A stretch of 64,000 nt of DNA from Methanobrevibacter ruminantium M1 (GTDB taxonomy: Archaea; Methanobacteriota; Methanobacteria; Methanobacteriales; Methanobacteriaceae), in the NCBI RefSeq assembly GCF_000024185.1, contig NC_013790.1, positions 248,001 to 312,000 of the forward strand, written 5' to 3'. How positions within the stretch are numbered: position 1 is the first letter of the stretch; each line of letters opens with the position of its first letter. Under the pieces are notes generated by a model. That model worked only from the letters and a program-made list of their open reading frames with translations, did not search any database and was not told the origin of the DNA. Positions 2,758-26,720 of this stretch are shown piece after piece. The position numbers and the translations under genes are program-made.

Positions 2758-3984
2758 ATGAAAGCAAAAGCTGAAAAAATCGGTGATGGAGTATACTGGA
2801 TCGGTGTACTTGATTGGGACTTAAGAACTTACCACGGATATACCTTAGACGGAACCACTTACAATGCTTACATTGTATTCGGCGAAAAGGTAGCAATCAT
2901 TGACAATGCATATCCTGGAAAAACTGAAGAGATGATGGCACGTATCGATGACGCTTTCGAACAAGAAGGAAGGGAAATCAAAGTGGACTACATCGTTCAA
3001 AACCACGTAGAAAAGGACCACAGTGGTGTCTTATACGACTTATGGAAAAGATTCGATGCACCTATCTACTGCAGTAAGATCGCTCAAGGAGGATTGCTCA
3101 GACACTATCCTAAATTGGAAGGTGCAGAATTCAACATTGTCGGAACCGGCGACGCTCTTGACCTTGGAGGCAAAACTTTAGCATTCTTAGATGCATTCTT
3201 GCTCCACTGGCCTGACAGCATGTTCACCTTACTTGCAGAAGACGGAATCCTATTCCCTAACGATGCATTCGGTCAACACTTATGCTACTCCAAAAGATAT
3301 GATAAGGACATTCCAGAATATGTTCTTATGGATGCAGCACAAAAGTTCTATGGTAACTTAATCACTCCACTATCTAAAAAGGTTCTTAACAAGTTTGATG
3401 AAATCATTGAATTAGGCCTTTTAGAACAAGTTAAGATGATTGCTCCTTCCCACGGTCAAATCTGGACAGACCCAATGAAAATCATTGGCGCTTACAGTGA
3501 CTGGGCAACCGGTAAAAGAGCAGAAGACAAAGTTACCATTGTCTATGACACAATGCACTATTCCACCCAAAAGATGGCTCACGAAGTTGCTGAAGGAATC
3601 ATGGCAGAAGGATACGATGTGGAAATGTTCTTCTTGCACGAAGACGAAAGAAGTGAAATCGTAAAAAGCATATTAACCAGTAAGGCTGTTGCTTTCGGTA
3701 TTCCAACAATCAACGACTTCCCATTCCCAAGCATTGGAGACATTATCTACTACTTGAAAGGTCTTCACTTCAACAGAACAGGATTCAAGAGACCCGCTGT
3801 AACCTTTGGTTCCATGGGAGGAAGAGGTGGAGCTGTTGAATTCATTGCAAACGAGCTCACCGAATGTGGATTTGAAGTTCTCGACCAACAAGAAATCTAC
3901 TATGTACCTGCAGATGAAGACGATGAAGCTAGCTTCAAATTAGGTCAAAAATTAGTAGAAGAAGCTAAAAAGTTAGAACTTTAA
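2758..3984 (+). CDS. fprA: F420H2 oxidase, flavodiiron protein FprA
   Basis: A 408-residue A-type flavodiiron protein. In methanogens it reduces O2 to water with F420H2, a cytoplasmic oxygen defence. Residues 1-255 form the metallo-beta-lactamase-like diiron domain with HVEKDH at 83-88 (ligand pattern H-x-E-x-D-H), the FPNDAFGQH segment and a later APSHGQIW histidine. Residues about 259-405 form the flavodoxin FMN domain ([32 protein letters not shown]). The RBS GAGGAATTAAA precedes ATG 2758. The gene is followed by a strong hairpin and then by the msvR-type regulator, and its promoter has paired TTCGTA/TACGAA boxes, implying redox control. The codon choice is regular and C-ending, as in well-expressed genes. 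Confidence 0.95.
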
Positions 3985-4005
3985 GTTTAAAAGCTAAAAT
4001 AAAAT

Positions 4006-4027
4006 AGAACTTTAGTTTTAAAGTTCT
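4006..4027 (+). terminator. Hairpin terminator after fprA
   Basis: AGAACTTTA and TAAAGTTCT form a perfect 9-bp stem with a GTTT loop, followed directly by a run of T (TTTATTTTTTTC). Position, 22 bp after the fprA stop, fits a transcription terminator. Confidence 0.7.
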
Positions 4028-4073
4028 TTTATTTTTTTCTTTTTTTATTTAAATTTTTTAATAATCCTTTTTT

Positions 4074-4144
4074 TCATAATCATACTCACTATTTTTTTAG
4101 TTATTTTTATCATAATCATGCTCACTATTTTTAGTTATTTTTTT
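4074..4144. repeat. Two-copy tandem repeat, 36-bp period
   Basis: TCATAATCAT[A/G]CTCACTATT followed by TTTAGTTATTTTTA occurs at 4074 and again at 4110, nearly identical. It lies between the fprA terminator and the msvR promoter. Function not apparent; it resembles the other short intergenic duplications in the window. Confidence 0.75.
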
Positions 4145-4284
4145 TATTTAGAATATCATTATTTTTGTATTTTTTTCACTTTTCTCTCATTCAACATTAA
4201 ACATCTTCACTGAATTTTCACAATTTTTTAGTGAAATCATAAAAGTTTTTAAAAGTCGATAAAAATTTGTATTTTTACTAACTG

Positions 4285-4373
4285 TTCGTATTTTTTTCTT
4301 TATTTTTAACATTTTATACGAATTATTCCTATTTTTAACTTAAACTAGTTTAGACTTTATTAAACTGTTCGTA
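4285..4373 (+). promoter_or_regulatory. msvR promoter region with three TTCGTA/TACGAA half-sites
   Basis: TTCGTA at 4285-4290, TACGAA at 4317-4322 and TTCGTA at 4368-4373; two of them are in the context ACTGTTCGTA. The first two are inverted with 26 bp between them (32 bp centre to centre, about three helical turns). A TATA-like element GTATATATGC lies at 4418-4427, so all three sit upstream of it, a layout that fits autoregulation by the V4R regulator encoded downstream. Confidence 0.6.
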
Positions 4374-4538
4374 CTAAATTTTAAAAAAATAAAACATTTT
4401 GTATACATAAGAACAAGTATATATGCTATAAAGTTTATACTATAATTATAAAACAATTTTGTTTAATGTTTATACAACAAAATTTAACAATTCTTGTTAA
4501 ATTTTAGATTTTTCTTGAAATTTTTTTGAGGGGTTATA

Positions 4539-5333
4539 ATGGAAAATGAAGAGAATATTAGTCAACCAAAAGCAATTCAAATTTTTGCTAAGGCTCCAGG
4601 GGAGCTTGGCGTAAATGTTGTAAAGAGCCCAGTGAAATTAACTATCCTTTCCATGCTAAAGGACACTGATATGGAATTTGATGAAATCGTTAAAAACACT
4701 GGTAAGTCAAAATCAACTATTTCTGTACATTTAAAGTCTTTAAGGGAAGATGGAATCGTAAGCTACAGATTTGATGCAAACGACCACAGAAAGAAAATAT
4801 TCTACATCAGCTCCAAATTCTTAGGAGAAGTAGAATCTGGTGATGAGAAGGAATTGGAAGAAAGACAAGCCGAATTCTTGGTAAAGAATATTTTAGATGT
4901 AGACAACTTCAAGTTCTCTTTTCTATTGTTCCACACCTTAAGATCCAACTTGATTCAAGAGGGAATTAACATCAACCCAGTATTAAACCAAACAGGAAAG
5001 AATATTGGTGCAGCAATGTATGAAAAGCTTTATGACGATGACATTAAAGTCTTCTGTGACAATATTACTGAATTCTGGGCAGATAATGGATTAGGAAAAC
5101 TTGATATAGTTTTAGGAGATATCATTAATGTTACTGCATATGAGTGTTTTGAATGCAGTTTGCTTCCTAAGAAGGGTAAACCTGCTTGCTACTTAGATGC
5201 AGGTATATTTGAAGCTCTTTTCGCTAATTATCTTAAAAAAGACATAGCAGTAACTGAAGTTAAATGTTTCACAATGGGTGACGACTGCTGTCATTTCTTA
5301 GTTGAAGGCATTAATGGTGAATCTTTAACTTAA
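4539..5333 (+). CDS. msvR: MsvR-type redox-sensing transcription regulator (HTH + V4R domain)
   Basis: A 264-residue regulator. Residues about 25-100 are an ArsR-like winged helix (VKLTILSMLKDTDMEFDEIV; KSTISVHLKSLREDGIVSYR). The C-terminal half is a V4R domain with a cysteine cluster (YECFECSLLP, KPACYLD, VKCFTMGDDCCHF), typical of the methanogen-specific regulator MsvR, which senses redox state through cysteines. In Methanothermobacter thermautotrophicus MsvR is encoded next to, and regulates, the fpaA flavoprotein operon; here it lies directly downstream of fprA in the same direction. The start follows GAGGGGTTATA. The identity is inferred from domain order, Cys pattern and neighbour. Confidence 0.88.
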   Translation: MENEENISQPKAIQIFAKAPGELGVNVVKSPVKLTILSMLKDTDMEFDEIVKNTGKSKSTISVHLKSLREDGIVSYRFDANDHRKKIFYISSKFLGEVESGDEKELEERQAEFLVKNILDVDNFKFSFLLFHTLRSNLIQEGININPVLNQTGKNIGAAMYEKLYDDDIKVFCDNITEFWADNGLGKLDIVLGDIINVTAYECFECSLLPKKGKPACYLDAGIFEALFANYLKKDIAVTEVKCFTMGDDCCHFLVEGINGESLT

Positions 5334-17961: not shown

Positions 17962-20900
17962 CTATTTTAATGTCAATTTAGCCTTTGCACTAGAAGTAGC
18001 AAATGTATCGTCACCTGCAAACTTGACAGTAAAGCTATAAGTTCCCTTCTTGTTTAGGCTTACATTTACAGTAGCAGTTCCTTTGGAATTGGTTTTAGCT
18101 GAGTATGTTTTGCCATTAACTGTGAAACTTATCTTTTTACCGCTTACGGCCTTTCCGTTTGCTGTCTTGAAGCTTGCAGTAAGGCTTTTTGTCTTTGCAC
18201 TTACCTTATATGACTTATTTGGGGCAGTCAATTTAGGGGTCTGTACTTTTACAGTAATCTTAGCAACTTCAAATGCTCCAAGGTATTCCTCATCTCCTAA
18301 GAATCCTATTGCAAAGGTGTATGTGCCTTTGTAAGCAAGGTTTATCTGTAGCTTTGCACTGCCGTTTTCATCTGTTGTTCTATCATAGACCCTTCCATTG
18401 AAACCTATCTTTATTGGTTTATTGGCTAAAGCAGTTCCGTTTTCGTCTTTTAAAGTAACTTGGAAGTATTCTCCTATTCTGCCGTCTTCAGATGCCACTG
18501 CAGTGGTTGTCATGTTTTTACAGTCTATTCTTGTATTGATTCTAGAAGATTCCTTTTTCTTGTCTTCATCTGTAGTATATACCTTTATAGCACAGACTTT
18601 CCCGTCACTGGTAAGGTCTACCCATTCTCCATTTAGATTTGCAGCTGACTTGTTTTCTATATAATGCTGTCTTCCACTTTCTAAAATTGGAATGCAGTCT
18701 GATGTGATCTTAACGTCAAATTCATCCCCTTCCTTGATAGGGACATATGAATCCAATTGGATTGTATGGAATCCAAAAAATGGTGAAGTTCCATCTTGGC
18801 TGTATTTCAATTCATCATTGACATAGATCTCTATGTTGTAATCGACGCCAGCATCAATGAAGTATGTTCCGACTGCTGCAATGAAATCATCTTCCAAAGC
18901 CTCAAATTCATTGACGTATTCATTTCCCATATCAGTGAATTCCAATGTGCCTCCGATGTCATATTGATAGTTTTTATTGTAAATGACTGTATTCATTATT
19001 GGGAATCCGACAGAAGGCACTAGGGTTGCAAAACTTGCGTCATAATAGGATATGTAATAGTATCCCTTATCTCCTAATTCTTCTCCCCAGCTGTTTTTGA
19101 TTATCCAAGCTCCGTCTCCTGGAGGGGTCATATAGAAATTGTCCTTGGAATAGTCATCATCCCATCCCACTAAAAGAACGCGATGGTTACTATCATTTTT
19201 TAGGCTGTATTGTGATGAGGTATTCTCATTTAATCCAGGTTCATCGGTTTCGGCATAGTAGCTTACTGCTAAAGCGCCATATTTTAAAAGGGATTGCTTT
19301 AATTTATCCTTGTCAGTGGAATTCATAAGAGGAGGCACAAAGACTGCGTCCTGCAAATGGATGCTGTCATCTGTTGCGATTATTGCTGAAATCTTTCCAA
19401 GCTCATCGTAAACGTCATATTCTGAAGGGAATACTCCAAACCAACTTAATGCATAGGAAGGGCCTAGGTTATACTCTCCCCCTTCTTCTGCTCCTAGGGT
19501 TCCATAGCGATAATATTGCAATAAGCTGTCTTGCATGTTGTTTTCAGAGATGTCCATTTCAAGGCCTAAAAATCTTAATATTGAAGATTCTATAGCTCCT
19601 ACAGTTCCAAATGCCCAACATGAACCCATGTAGCCTTGGTTTTTAACTGGAGTCACCCATCCCCATTCACGTAGGTCAAATTTCCGAGGAGGGTTTGTCA
19701 CATTGATTTCATTTTCTATGAGGGTAAAGTTCATTCCAGAAACGGCGATTACTGATTCATACCTTTCGTTGTTCAGGCATATTGAATCCTCTCCGCTATA
19801 GCTATTGTTTTCAAGTGTGGCGATTTCCCCATCGAAGTCTGTGAAGATATCATCAAACTCACTCTCTTTGTTGGTATTGTCTTTGAAAGTGGAGTTTGCA
19901 ATGTAGTAGCCTGAATCATATGTATATAGGGCTCCTCCAGTTTGGGCGTTATTGTTGCTGAAGCTGCAATTCAATATAATCAATGCGCTAATGTCAGAGA
20001 ATATTGCCCCTCCAAAGGAACCTCTATCATCATCTAATTCTACAGAGTTATTGTCAAAGATTGTCTGTGAAATTGTAAGCTGTGAGAAGGAAGAATAGAT
20101 TGCTCCTCCGTCAAAGAATGCCCCATTGTTTGTGAAATTGTCTTCCTCCAATGTGATTTTTCCCCCTAAAGAGAGGATTGCTCCTCCGAATTCGCTGTAG
20201 CAATTAACAAAGGAGGATCTTGAAATCATTATTGGTACGTCTTCGCTATCTGAATATATGTCAAGGAATATTGCCCCTCCATTTTTTTGTGAACTCACAT
20301 TAATGAATGTGCAATTGTCAATTTCAGCCTCTTCAATTCTTTTTAATCCTATTGCTCCTGCAGTAAGGTTTGCATAGAGATTAATGAATTTAGAATCATG
20401 AATTACTGTTTCTCGATCTCCCTTGATTGCTGTAGCGTATTTGGAGGTGGTATTTGCAAATGTTGTGTTTAAAACGTAGATTGAGGAATTTCCCAAACTG
20501 TTGACGAAAGCCCAGTCCAATGGCTTGGAGCTTTCAAAATATCCGTTGTTGATAGTTATTTCACCAAGGTATGAGTTTATTACTCCATCATTGAGGGATG
20601 TGCAGTCTATAAACTTATCATTATTGCTTGTATATTTTGCTCCAAATGCAAATATTACTCTTTTGTCTGAGCTGTCGTTGATGAAGGTTACATTGTTTGT
20701 CTCAAGCTCAGAGCCTGGGTTGAGTAATAGGGCGCTGTCCTTTGTAGAGTTTGCATTTATTATATTGAGATTTTTTAGGGTTATGTTAGTTCCGTTGATT
20801 TGGAAAATGCCACATTGATTGTCTCCGTCTATTGTATGGCCATTTCCGTTAATTACGAAATTGCTTTTAGAGATTGTTAATGTGATATTGTCAGTTTCAT

Positions 20901-21246
20901 TGTTGTATTTATAGTCGTCTGTCAATTCTAAAAGGTCACTTGCATTTATTATTTCCATTTGTAAGTCTGTAAATGTCTTCGCAGGATCTTTTAGAGCTTT
21001 ATTATTATCATTATTATTTGTATCTTTTAAATTATCATGATCATTTTGGATGATTGTGCTTTCGCTTAAGCTTTTATCACTTAAAGTGTTGTCGCTTAAG
21101 GTATTTTCATTTAAGCTGTTGTCGCTTAATGTGTTATCGTTTAGTCCATTATCACTTAAATCATTATTAAAATTCTCTGTTGCTGAAACCGCTCCCAGAG
21201 ATATGATTAAAATAAGCATGATAATTGCTATCTTTAAGACCTTCAT
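17962..21246 (-). CDS. Secreted adhesin-like protein with papain-type (C1) cysteine protease domain
   Basis: A 1094-residue exported protein. Residues 1-23 are a signal peptide. Residues about 25-75 are a repetitive Asn/Asp/Ser/Leu spacer (SDNxLxxNTLSDN units). Residues about 90-490 form a right-handed beta-helix-like repeat region (INGTNITLKNLNI, GGAIFSD, GGALYTYD turns). Residues about 525-770 are a papain fold with GSCWAF (Cys543), SNHRVLLVGW (His688) and IKNSWGEE (Asn718), plus the oxyanion Gln in VKNQGYMG. The C-terminus (912-1094) has two Ig-like modules shared with the other adhesin in this window. It probably acts at the cell surface, cutting or cross-linking peptide material; host or pseudomurein peptides are possible targets. 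Confidence 0.9.
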   Translation of the reverse strand: MKVLKIAIIMLILIISLGAVSATENFNNDLSDNGLNDNTLSDNSLNENTLSDNTLSDKSLSESTIIQNDHDNLKDTNNNDNNKALKDPAKTFTDLQMEIINASDLLELTDDYKYNNETDNITLTISKSNFVINGNGHTIDGDNQCGIFQINGTNITLKNLNIINANSTKDSALLLNPGSELETNNVTFINDSSDKRVIFAFGAKYTSNNDKFIDCTSLNDGVINSYLGEITINNGYFESSKPLDWAFVNSLGNSSIYVLNTTFANTTSKYATAIKGDRETVIHDSKFINLYANLTAGAIGLKRIEEAEIDNCTFINVSSQKNGGAIFLDIYSDSEDVPIMISRSSFVNCYSEFGGAILSLGGKITLEEDNFTNNGAFFDGGAIYSSFSQLTISQTIFDNNSVELDDDRGSFGGAIFSDISALIILNCSFSNNNAQTGGALYTYDSGYYIANSTFKDNTNKESEFDDIFTDFDGEIATLENNSYSGEDSICLNNERYESVIAVSGMNFTLIENEINVTNPPRKFDLREWGWVTPVKNQGYMGSCWAFGTVGAIESSILRFLGLEMDISENNMQDSLLQYYRYGTLGAEEGGEYNLGPSYALSWFGVFPSEYDVYDELGKISAIIATDDSIHLQDAVFVPPLMNSTDKDKLKQSLLKYGALAVSYYAETDEPGLNENTSSQYSLKNDSNHRVLLVGWDDDYSKDNFYMTPPGDGAWIIKNSWGEELGDKGYYYISYYDASFATLVPSVGFPIMNTVIYNKNYQYDIGGTLEFTDMGNEYVNEFEALEDDFIAAVGTYFIDAGVDYNIEIYVNDELKYSQDGTSPFFGFHTIQLDSYVPIKEGDEFDVKITSDCIPILESGRQHYIENKSAANLNGEWVDLTSDGKVCAIKVYTTDEDKKKESSRINTRIDCKNMTTTAVASEDGRIGEYFQVTLKDENGTALANKPIKIGFNGRVYDRTTDENGSAKLQINLAYKGTYTFAIGFLGDEEYLGAFEVAKITVKVQTPKLTAPNKSYKVSAKTKSLTASFKTANGKAVSGKKISFTVNGKTYSAKTNSKGTATVNVSLNKKGTYSFTVKFAGDDTFATSSAKAKLTLK

Positions 21247-21762: not shown

Positions 21763-21850
21763 TTATCTAGTTTACTGGATAGTCTTTTATATATTATTAT
21801 CTAGTTTACTGGATAGTCTTTTATATATTATTATCTAGTTTACTGGATAA
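21763..21850. repeat. Three copies of a palindrome plus TATA-like box, 34-bp period
   Basis: TTATCTAGTTTACTGGATA occurs at 21763, 21797 and 21831, exactly 34 bp apart. Each core ATCTAGT-TT-ACTGGAT is an inverted repeat with one mismatch. The first two copies are followed by CTTTTATATATTATT, a TATA-like box. The array lies between two convergent genes, where an operator/promoter array is unexpected. Downstream I see hairpins (GAGTTAAAAACTC, 21912-21924) but no gene. Confidence 0.8.
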
Positions 21851-21993: not shown

Positions 21994-22422
21994 TTATCCT
22001 TGAACAGTAACTTTTAGCATCTTATCTCCAGGACGGATAGCATTTACAACATCCATTCCTTCGATAACTTGTCCAAATACGGTGTGAACACCATCTAAAT
22101 GAGGTTGCGGACTGTGGGTAATAAAGAACTGGCTTCCTCCAGTGTCCTTACCTGCATGTGCCATGGATAATGCTCCGGTTCCATGTTTGTGTGGGTTTCC
22201 TTCGGTTTCACATTTGATGGTCCAGCCAGGTCCTCCGGTACCGTCTCCTCTTGGACATCCTCCTTGGATTACAAAGTCAGGAATTACACGGTGGAAGGTT
22301 AATCCGTCATAGAATCCGCTGTTTGCTAATTTTTCAAAGTTTGCTACAGTTCCAGGAGCTTCGTTAGGGAATAATTCCAATACGATATCTCCTTTTTCAG
22401 TTTCAATAATTGCCTTTTTCAT
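21994..22422 (-). CDS. Cyclophilin-type peptidyl-prolyl cis-trans isomerase
   Basis: A 142-residue single-domain cytosolic cyclophilin that speeds proline isomerisation during folding. Family blocks: [20 protein letters not shown] (with the catalytic Arg), [20 protein letters not shown], and [14 protein letters not shown]. An in-frame GTG at 22431 is really part of the GTGAT ribosome site of ATG 22422. Codon use is C-rich in the wobble position, as for a highly expressed gene. An 11-bp palindrome TGTTTGAAACA (22470-22480) lies 48 bp upstream. Confidence 0.95.
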
Positions 22423-22655
22423 TATAATCACTTTTCATTGTCTTTTAATGAATTAGTTATTTTTTTAGTTGTTTGAAACATAATATCTTGTTTAAAACAT
22501 ATTAAAAATACTATTTATATTTTATTTAACTTAATATTTAAAATTATTTTTTCCAGTCTTTTCATATTCAATTTAATTTTAGTTTTTTCTGTTTTATTCA
22601 GTGATTTATCGCTTTCTAAAAAATTTTAAATATAACTATTTATATATAAGAAAAT

Positions 22656-22931
22656 ATGTTAGAACAATATATGCAATTTATGTGGTTAATCATTTTTGGG
22701 AATATAGAGAACTTGATTTTATCTTCCCAAGGAGTTGTACAGGGAGTGGATCCTAAGATTTTAGGTGGATTAAGTATTCTTGTAGTTATTATGTGGTTTG
22801 TAATCGGTACAGTCATTACTGATGTTGCAATACAATATTCCAATCTTATTAATTTTATTGGCGGTCTTGCAATATTTCTTTTAGGTTTTCAAGCTGTTTA
22901 TGAGGCTGTTAGGAACATAAGGGGTGGATAA
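22656..22931 (+). CDS. Half-size integral membrane protein A (twin of the next gene)
   Basis: A 91-residue protein with three hydrophobic segments: LIIFGNIENLILSSQGV region (about 9-25), ILGGLSILVVIMWFVIGTVI (35-56) and INFIGGLAIFLLGFQAVYEA (64-84). Its key feature is the polar motif FGNIENLIL inside the first helix, repeated in the next gene. Three-helix halves with a polar or acidic motif in the first helix are the building plan of the LysE/TerC/CadD/Gdt1 transporter superfamily, where two halves are usually fused. Here they are separate, overlapping in operon style. TATA-like ATTTATATA lies only about 16 bp upstream. The function is unknown. Confidence 0.75.
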   Translation: MLEQYMQFMWLIIFGNIENLILSSQGVVQGVDPKILGGLSILVVIMWFVIGTVITDVAIQYSNLINFIGGLAIFLLGFQAVYEAVRNIRGG

Positions 22932-22932
22932 G

Positions 22933-23202
22933 ATGGATTGGAAACCTTATGCTCCATTCACTGCATTGCTTATTTTTGGAAACATTGAAAACCTTATTCT
23001 ATCATCTGAAGGTGTAATAGCAGGTGTTAATTCATTTGTTTTGCTTATATTGAGTTTGATAGCCGTTGTTGCTTGGCTTCTCTTAGGAACATATGGTACA
23101 AACTATGCAATCAAGTATGCTGATTATATTGAAATTATCGGCGGAATCGCTATTATTCTATTGGGTTTAGAATCAATGCTTGAAGCCTTTGGAATTCTTT
23201 AA
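22933..23202 (+). CDS. Half-size integral membrane protein B (twin of the previous gene)
   Basis: An 89-residue paralogue of the preceding protein: LLIFGNIENLILSSEGVIAGV is nearly the same as LIIFGNIENLILSSQGVVQGV, and the second and third helices and GGIAIILLG ending also align. ATG 22933 lies one base after the neighbour's stop; an in-frame GTG at 22924 would overlap it. The two probably assemble as a heterodimer to make one complete carrier or channel. I cannot name the substrate; a metal ion or small cation exporter is an inference from the superfamily plan only. Confidence 0.75.
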   Translation: MDWKPYAPFTALLIFGNIENLILSSEGVIAGVNSFVLLILSLIAVVAWLLLGTYGTNYAIKYADYIEIIGGIAIILLGLESMLEAFGIL

Positions 23203-23426: not shown

Positions 23427-24467
23427 TTAAACCTTAATTTCTCCAGATAGGATCTTTTTATAATCCTCATAGTTCTTCTTTAAAAGCTCTGGAATGTCAA
23501 GTTCATATGGACATTTCATGACACATTGCCTGCATTCTGTGCAGTCCTCTATCTTTCTCATCTTCTCTTGAGTCTCTTCATTTAGGTTTGGTTCAGCTGG
23601 GAACCTTCTAATCCATAATGACATTCTTGCGCAGATGAATATTTGAATGTCTTCAGGGCATGGCATGCAGTATCCGCAGCCTCTGCAGAAGTCTCCCTGC
23701 AATTCTTCTCTTTCCTTTGCAATTATCTCTTCAAGTTGCTTATCTAATTTGGTGTCGTCTGCCATATATGATAGGAATTCGTCAAGTTCGCTTAGTTTTT
23801 GAACTCCCCATATTGGAACAACATTATCAAAATGATTGATGTATGCAAATGCTGCCTTAGAGCTTCTGATAAGCCCTCCGCTCATTGCCTTCATTGCAAT
23901 GAATCCTATATTGTTTGCCCTTGCCATCTCCACAATTGCAAGCTCCTTTGGCCCTGTAAGGTAAGAGAAAGGAAACTGTATGGTTTCGTATAATCCGCTG
24001 TGGATTGCTTCTTCTGCAAGTTCATATTTGTGGGAGGTGAATCCTATATGTCTTATTGTTCCCTCATCGTAGAGGTCGAACAATGCATCGTATGCTCCGC
24101 TTCCGTCCCCTTCTGTAGGGCAGAATGATGGGTTGTGTATCTGATAAAGGTCTATATAGTCGGTTCCTAGATTGTCAAGACTAGTCTTGATATCCTTTTC
24201 AATGTCTCTTCTGTTTTCCCCTTGGGTCTTGCTTGCAATAATGATGCTTTCTCGTGGAAACTCTTTATCGAATCCTTTAAATGCATAGTTAAGTTTTTCT
24301 TCACTATCTGTATATGCTCTTGCAGTGTCGAAGAAGTTTATTCCGTTATTGTAAGCCTTTCGAACAATCTCTGCACTTTCATTAAAGTCAACACGTTGAA
24401 TAGGGAGTGCTCCAAATCCGTTTTTCTCTATTTCAAGTCCAGTCTTGCCAAGTATTATTCTAGCCAT
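23427..24467 (-). CDS. Aldo/keto reductase with C-terminal ferredoxin-like [4Fe-4S] domain
   Basis: A 346-residue fusion. Residues 1-245 are an aldo/keto reductase barrel: FDTARAYTDSEEKL with the catalytic Asp and Tyr, Lys in IIASKTQG, and NLGTDYIDLYQIHNP. Residues about 265-325 hold two cysteine clusters: CRGCGYCMPCP and CTECRQCVMKCP, sufficient for two [4Fe-4S] clusters. Such oxidoreductases occur widely in anaerobes, probably moving electrons between ferredoxin and a carbonyl substrate or NADPH; the physiological substrate is unknown. It is divergent from argD. The start follows a GGTGATAGG site. Confidence 0.88.
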   Translation of the reverse strand: MARIILGKTGLEIEKNGFGALPIQRVDFNESAEIVRKAYNNGINFFDTARAYTDSEEKLNYAFKGFDKEFPRESIIIASKTQGENRRDIEKDIKTSLDNLGTDYIDLYQIHNPSFCPTEGDGSGAYDALFDLYDEGTIRHIGFTSHKYELAEEAIHSGLYETIQFPFSYLTGPKELAIVEMARANNIGFIAMKAMSGGLIRSSKAAFAYINHFDNVVPIWGVQKLSELDEFLSYMADDTKLDKQLEEIIAKEREELQGDFCRGCGYCMPCPEDIQIFICARMSLWIRRFPAEPNLNEETQEKMRKIEDCTECRQCVMKCPYELDIPELLKKNYEDYKKILSGEIKV

Positions 24468-26075: not shown

Positions 26076-26720
26076 ATGGAAATAAAAAGAATCAACAGGT
26101 ATGTCATTTACCTATTTTCACTGTTTTTAATATCATTAGGGGCCTCAATATCAATCAAGGCAAATCTGGGAACATCTCCAATCATCTGCCTTCCATATGT
26201 TTCAAGCCTTATCTTGAATATGAGCGTTGGAACAGTCTGTTTGATATTTAATGTTATATTCATACTTGTTCAGATAATCCTCCTTAGGGGAGACTTTGAA
26301 AGGAGACAGTATCTTCAGATAATTGTAGGAACAATCTTCTCCCTTTCAATTGACTTTTCAATGACGCTTGTAACTTTTTTAAATCCTACAAACTACATTA
26401 GCCAGTTTGCCGTCCTTATGCTAAGTTGTGTGGTTGTTGCATTTGGCGTATTGCTTGAGGTTCAAACAGAGGTGGTCTTTCTTCCTCCCGATGGAATCAT
26501 TGTGGCTATTTCAAAGGTTCTAAATAAGGAGTTTCCTAAGGTAAAACCTTTCTTTGATACATCATTAGTGCTTACAGCAGCTATTCTTTCAATAGTTTTC
26601 CTAGGCTACCTTGCAGGAGTCCGTGAAGGAACCATAATTTCAGCTGTAATAATTGGGCCTATCGTTAAAGTGCTTCAGAAGTTCTTTAATCCTTATATCG
26701 AGGCTGTAATTGAAAAATAA
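26076..26720 (+). CDS. YczE/YyaS/YitT-type integral membrane protein
   Basis: A 214-residue protein with five to six membrane helices. The start RYVIYLFSLFLISLGASISI followed by KANLGTSPI is the hallmark of the YczE-like (DUF6198) family, and the QTEVVFLPPDGIIVAIS segment also fits. The role is undefined; members often sit beside regulators or transporters. Here it is monocistronic with no clear RBS and a very short leader after a poly-A/T promoter. Function not claimed. Confidence 0.75.
   Translation: MEIKRINRYVIYLFSLFLISLGASISIKANLGTSPIICLPYVSSLILNMSVGTVCLIFNVIFILVQIILLRGDFERRQYLQIIVGTIFSLSIDFSMTLVTFLNPTNYISQFAVLMLSCVVVAFGVLLEVQTEVVFLPPDGIIVAISKVLNKEFPKVKPFFDTSLVLTAAILSIVFLGYLAGVREGTIISAVIIGPIVKVLQKFFNPYIEAVIEK

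Follow-up and report, generated by a model that had tools for sequence, protein, structure and literature searches.

Two adjacent half-size membrane proteins of Methanobrevibacter ruminantium M1 as a candidate unfused carrier of the LysE superfamily

Introduction

Two adjacent genes of Methanobrevibacter ruminantium M1, here called A and B, encode similar half-size membrane proteins and raise the question of whether such proteins could together form one carrier and, if so, of what kind and for which substrate. Inverted-repeat carriers are thought to arise when a half-size gene duplicates, the two products fix opposite topologies and the genes fuse. The unfused stage is kept by few families, two of which were known to the 2014 paper on GDT1 (PMC4067407). 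The pair considered here lies in a 64,000-nucleotide stretch of the genome (contig NC_013790.1, positions 248,001 to 312,000; hereafter the window, within which coordinates are counted). A sequence-only reading of the window had likened each protein to one half of LysE/TerC/Gdt1-type carriers, and had proposed either an unfused, ancestor-like state or a new family of small transporters forming heterodimers.

The A-B gene pair

As that reading had it, the genes lie one base apart and encode three-helix proteins of about 90 residues: both open reading frames were recovered on the forward strand, gene A (22656..22931) with 91 aa and gene B (22933..23202) with 89 aa from its ATG, and the three helices of each are predicted on a homologous pair, that of locus L048. 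The single base G22932 separates the stop codon of A from the start codon of B (TAA-G-ATG, 22929..22935, forward strand), a junction that suggests coupled translation. An in-frame GTG start of B at 22924 was dropped, and the ATG at 22933, which agrees with the relatives, was kept. By sequence comparison A and B are homologous three-helix proteins, with 49% identity over 61 aa (E = 6e-19) and the first segments LIIFGNIENLILSSQGV in A and LLIFGNIENLILSSEGV in B. Changes between the window pair and the pair of locus L008 are mostly synonymous (dN 0.13/dS 0.97 for A; dN 0.16/dS 1.20 for B), which indicates purifying selection on both genes.

In the window A and B form a transcription unit of their own: a cyclophilin-type gene on one side (21994-22431, reverse strand) is transcribed away from them, and an aldo/keto reductase gene on the other (23427-24467, reverse strand) towards them. 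The M1 genome contains a second A-B pair at 2,130,757-2,131,268. Other features of the window include three head-to-tail copies of an AT-rich unit of ~37 bp (TATCTAGTTTACTGGATAGTCTTTTATATATTAT...) at 21764-21850, downstream of the cyclophilin-type gene; a gene for a secreted adhesin-like protein of 1094 aa with the papain-type stretch NQGYMGSCWAF (17962-21246, reverse strand); and a gene for a DUF6198 membrane protein (PF19700, E 3e-13; 26076-26720, forward strand) between argD-like and NUDIX-type genes.

Distribution, pairing and duplication of the family

A search with a profile of 16 members (A2) was positive in 104 of 152 genomes from the phylum, representing 4 of 20 genera, all Methanobacteriaceae; relatives in a species-wide scan likewise belonged to Methanobrevibacter, Methanosphaera and further Methanobacteriaceae. 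Searches of 29 genomes from a second archaeal phylum, of viral contigs and of plasmids yielded no member outside the Methanobacteriaceae. In Pfam and NCBIfam searches A, B, 16 relatives and a natural A-B fusion described below were all without a significant match, as were the pair proteins in a search of PDB sequences.

Members of the family almost always occur in pairs. We collected 107 unique tandem pairs, and copy number is even in 99 of the 104 positive genomes, as counted from the genome table. The spacing between A and B is one base in 38 of the 107 pairs and mostly between -14 and +22 in the others. This set was chosen by the pattern FGN.E, a bias that was lifted for the motif count by an HMM recheck in which the motif was not a selection criterion, and GNIENL was present in 226 of 226 distinct domains so collected. 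The shared motif of the twin proteins is therefore an invariant feature of the family, and the 107 tandem pairs exclude chance. In the window FGNIENL occupies residues 14-20 of A (22695..22715, forward strand), where helix 1 breaks at GNI and E18 is the sole acidic residue of that helix, and residues 15-21 of B (22975..22995, forward strand).

In a tree of 212 halves, which is built on a short alignment and leaves most forks unresolved, A and B are parted by one branch (support 89), and the A/B state changes once, compared with about 71 times in shuffles. This split on one branch points to a single duplication before the radiation of the family. A triple array, A-B-B', was seen in L239 (minus strand, 1054-2099 in reverse-complement coordinates); its B has an acidic N-terminal extension, and a similarly extended B is found in L120.

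Opposite charge bias and a natural fusion

With A and B defined by gene order alone, the K+R count of N-tail, loop 1, loop 2 and C-tail is 0.1/0.9/0.1/2.4 for A and 1.1/0.0/2.4/0.1 for B. The K+R bias of A is below that of B in all 107 FGN.E-selected pairs that the count covers, a few LGN-type pairs being left out; its sign is positive for B in 107 of 107 and, for A, negative in 100 and zero in 7. Together with the positive-inside rule, this opposite bias predicts that A is N-out/C-in and B N-in/C-out, which bears out the opposed topologies that the sequence-only reading had proposed to look for by this rule. Homologous genes in tandem with opposite K+R bias are thus found here, as in other fixed dual-topology gene pairs.

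One genome, a rabbit-gut Methanobrevibacter MAG, contains A and B fused in a single open frame of 243 codons with an acidic linker (L238, minus strand, 1402-2133 in reverse-complement coordinates; the same contig as L080, where it is 3851-4579). This is the single case of fusion, seen in a MAG only; its nearest relatives are unfused, with an A that has the same acidic C-tail. The fusion connects the two ends that are assigned to the cytosol by the charge rule, so the linker is predicted to be cytosolic.

Predicted fold

The in-frame pair of L048 was modelled with AlphaFold2 from an alignment of 17 homologous pairs, after the two proteins had been joined by reading the intervening stop codon as Gly, which serves as a linker only. 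The model (pLDDT 80.7, pTM 0.75) has helices at 2-15/19-29, 34-58 and 60-90 in its A part and at 100-112/116-127, 131-155 and 157-182 in its B part, so that each half consists of a broken helix, with the break of helix 1 at G-N-I, plus two further helices. The organism's own MntP, modelled as a folding control, has helices at 3-27, 33-89 (two spans), 104-114/116-127, 133-157 and 163-184, a spacing nearly equal to that of the joined pair. The 3+3 transmembrane inverted repeat of the LysE superfamily is therefore predicted here, as the sum of two genes only. A Foldseek search of the PDB and viral models with the joined-pair model gave nothing at E<=1e-3. The MntP control likewise had no significant match (best CcdA 5vkv, E 0.15), so this negative result carries no weight.

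Relationship to MntP and the LysE superfamily

MntP (PF02659, DUF204, TC 2.A.107) is a Mn2+ exporter of the LysE superfamily. Compared singly by hhalign, A scored 17% against the N-half of MntP and B 84% against its C-half; joined in gene order, A+B scored 95.8% (E 7.6e-9) in a full-length, collinear alignment that did not depend on the natural fusion (E 6.8e-9 without it). The swapped order, B+A, gave E 1.5e-5 with one half alone aligned, and controls with reversed MntP and with 31 unrelated membrane families scored 0.2% and at most 0.9%, respectively. For comparison, the accepted superfamily relatives GDT1, LysE and TerC scored 42%, 1.3% and 0.3% against MntP. The proposed likeness to LysE/TerC/Gdt1-type halves accordingly stands as regards a LysE-superfamily inverted-repeat half, and the nearest relative of A+B by profile is MntP rather than GDT1 (0.2%). 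TerC, for which, as for CadD, the sequence set was too small, scored 0.1% against an alignment of only five enterobacterial sequences. Against LysE (PF01810), A alone scored 74% and A+B 31%.

The similarity of A+B to MntP, a member family of the LysE superfamily, is significant and has its weight in helix 3: in pairwise comparison of B with MntP, z is 9.9 for helix 3, 1.8 for helix 2 and 0.1 for helix 1. Invariant glycines of MntP line up with the GG-x6-G of helix 3, and B is nearer to archaeal MntP than to E. coli MntP. Neither A, B, 16 relatives nor the fusion reached the Pfam gathering cut-off of PF02659, and the invariant MntP Asp (MDAF in TM1, SIDAF in TM4) is absent from the pair, which has the Glu of GNIEN instead; this Glu is in register with the Asp in B (that of TM4) and is one-off and gapped in A. 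Because both the cut-off and the Asp motif are missed, the family is filed as not an MntP. It is probably, as judged from these profiles, a distant member of the LysE superfamily whose nearest relative is MntP.

Gene context

Eighteen loci of one orthologous group place the pair after rmlA/C/B, with rmlD further upstream. In the 17 of these in which the contig continues, a gene for a PF04464 CDP-glycerol glycerophosphotransferase follows 0-32 bp downstream, and GT2 genes come next. In five further loci, that of the natural fusion included, the pair lies among other glycosyltransferase-type genes. Since the loci are orthologous, this association with glycopolymer synthesis counts once or twice, not 23 times, and the conserved context is a feature of one subgroup only; other subgroups, including that of the window, are without conserved neighbours. 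No metal-responsive RNA element or riboswitch was found. A gene for a secreted-looking ribonuclease (PF00545, E 8e-17) lies within the dTDP-rhamnose cluster, between rmlD and rmlA, in L113 (624-1082) and 15 other loci, and one for an ABC-2-type membrane protein (612-771 aa, PF12698) adjoins the pair, on either strand, in L050, L052, L057, L059, L067, L070 and others.

Discussion

We give a probability of about 0.6 to the reading that the pair is a carrier of the LysE superfamily, nearest to MntP, in the form of an unfused, antiparallel heterodimer. A and B would be half-size, co-translated subunits of one small secondary carrier, and, inserted in opposite orientations, would pack as an antiparallel heterodimer that yields the 3+3 inverted repeat built from a single chain in MntP and other LysE-superfamily carriers. 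The heterodimer of the sequence-only reading is thereby predicted from the opposite charge bias, the natural fusion and the collinear match of A+B to MntP. The broken first helices could bring two Glu and four Asn face to face close to the middle of the membrane, to form a site for substrate or protons; the proposed cation path through the pair is plausible by homology.

Against this reading speak the concentration of MntP similarity in helix 3 and the unlike signature motifs (GNIEN versus MDA/SIDA), and also the absence of a curated family match and of a metal-responsive RNA element, the presence of MntP beside the pair in one genome, the restriction of a glycopolymer context to one subgroup and the occurrence of a single fusion, in a MAG. 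The first of these points, with the lack of a curated family match and of a fold match at E<=1e-3, would also fit a new small-transporter family with its own, non-LysE fold, in which the match to MntP reflects a convergent glycine-rich third helix. However, the profile score depends on the order of A and B, the whole length aligns when they are in order, the helix spacing is MntP-like and the GG-x6-G register extends to invariant glycines, and we regard a separate fold as improbable. Still less probable are membrane subunits without a transport function, which would serve envelope enzymes, such as those of surface polymers, as a scaffold or assembly factor. Their small size and the glycan clusters around some members would suit this, but a carrier is suggested by the charged residue and Asn buried without variation in broken helices, by the inverted-repeat arrangement of the pair and by the match to MntP.

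What the putative heterodimeric carrier transports can be proposed more tentatively. A relative of MntP within a glycopolymer cluster favours export of a divalent cation to enzymes that work beyond the membrane, as the sole idea that unites both observations, and TerC proteins and GDT1 offer analogies: the former support the Mn-dependent LtaS (PMC10550928), and the latter provides Mn2+ for glycosylation by Golgi glycosyltransferases (PMC7380456). The likeliest substrate, though far from assured, is a divalent cation such as Mn2+, which would leave the cell by exchange and might serve extracytoplasmic enzymes of glycopolymer synthesis. Because part of the family lies in glycopolymer clusters, a lipid-linked substrate is also allowed, and the main rival to cation export is that the same antiparallel heterodimer, as a small flippase or exporter, moves building blocks of wall glycopolymers: a lipid-linked sugar, polyprenyl phosphate or a precursor of a glycerol-phosphate polymer. 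It draws on the rml and glycerophosphotransferase neighbours at 17 loci and the glycosyltransferase neighbours at five (the fusion among them), on the rhamnose and abundant phosphate of M. ruminantium M1 walls (PMC2812497) and on GAP, a peptidoglycolipid exporter that belongs to the LysE superfamily (PMC4608589). Yet the profiles place a metal exporter nearest to the pair, three helices per half leave scant room for a large headgroup, and the glycan context is missing from other subgroups, the window pair included, so that a flippase seems rather unlikely.

The same data bear on the origin of the pair. Fission of the organism's own MntP would explain the ordered correspondence of A to the N-half and of B to the C-half, and why B is nearer to archaeal than to E. 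coli MntP. However, the genome also has an intact mntP, which the pair thus does not replace, and A and B resemble each other (hhalign E 2e-47) much more closely than the halves of MntP do (E 1e-6); simple fission is therefore highly unlikely, and a direct split of MntP was rejected. The same comparison also tells somewhat against the ancestor-like state proposed from the sequence. The pair instead looks, from these similarities, like the product of its own later duplication and not a relic or split of a fused MntP; the better account is renewed duplication of a half-size gene, provided that the likeness of A and B is not maintained by gene conversion. A more speculative and, as a whole, doubtful scenario is that a half-size LysE-type unit was re-duplicated in an ancestor of host-associated Methanobacteriaceae, persists as pair, A-B-B' triple and fusion, and now forms a heterodimer whose export of Mn2+ or a similar cation furnishes extracytoplasmic enzymes of an archaeal teichoic-acid-like polymer with their metal. 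If true, such re-duplication would re-run the origin of the inverted-repeat carrier fold.

One narrow archaeal family thus displays paired, tripled and fused genes, a motif conserved between the halves and a very clean segregation of charge. Its 180-residue, two-subunit system opens assembly, topology and symmetry of an MntP-like carrier to subunit-wise study, and it is a candidate for an envelope or metal function in rumen methanogens.

Comparison with known systems

Like MntP, the pair has a predicted 3+3 inverted repeat with a summed size of about 180-190 aa, similar helix spacing, GG-x6-G in helix 3 and, in both halves, a helix 1 with an acidic residue. Unlike MntP, it is encoded by two genes, has GNIEN in place of MDA/SIDA and halves that are far more alike, and falls below the Pfam cut-off in a genome that also has a true MntP. 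With TerC (PF03741) it shares an acidic-Asn motif in a first helix and, probably, the LysE superfamily, and the natural fusion gives a weak whole-length Pfam alignment to TerC (E 0.08); no TerC was found in genomes of the phylum.

The closest precedent is provided by the UPF0016/GDT1 gene pairs of cyanobacteria, in which the products of adjacent three-helix half genes are set in opposite topologies by a K+R bias that follows gene order; fused forms exist elsewhere, and pairs and fusions are also known for DUF606 (PMC4067407). In contrast to GDT1 (PF01169), the present pair is archaeal, lacks the motif E-x-G-D-(K/R)-(S/T) and, as its hhalign score indicates, is not detectably related in sequence. 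GDT1 itself occurs as a single half-size ORF of 91-106 aa, with one match per genome, in L209, L212 and L213 (G205, G243 and G053), each possibly a dual-topology singleton. Paired SMR transporters form antiparallel heterodimers from tandem genes, with a membrane-buried Glu in each subunit. The A-B pair resembles these and the DUF606 pairs in this proposed arrangement; SMR and DUF606 subunits differ in having 4 or 5 helices, and Pfam and NCBIfam searches found no sequence match between either and the A-B family. Paired, oppositely oriented half-genes are therefore already known as a kind, and what is new is the family itself, its archaeal and apparently gut-lineage restriction, its affinity to the MntP side of the superfamily and the coexistence of pair, triple and fusion.
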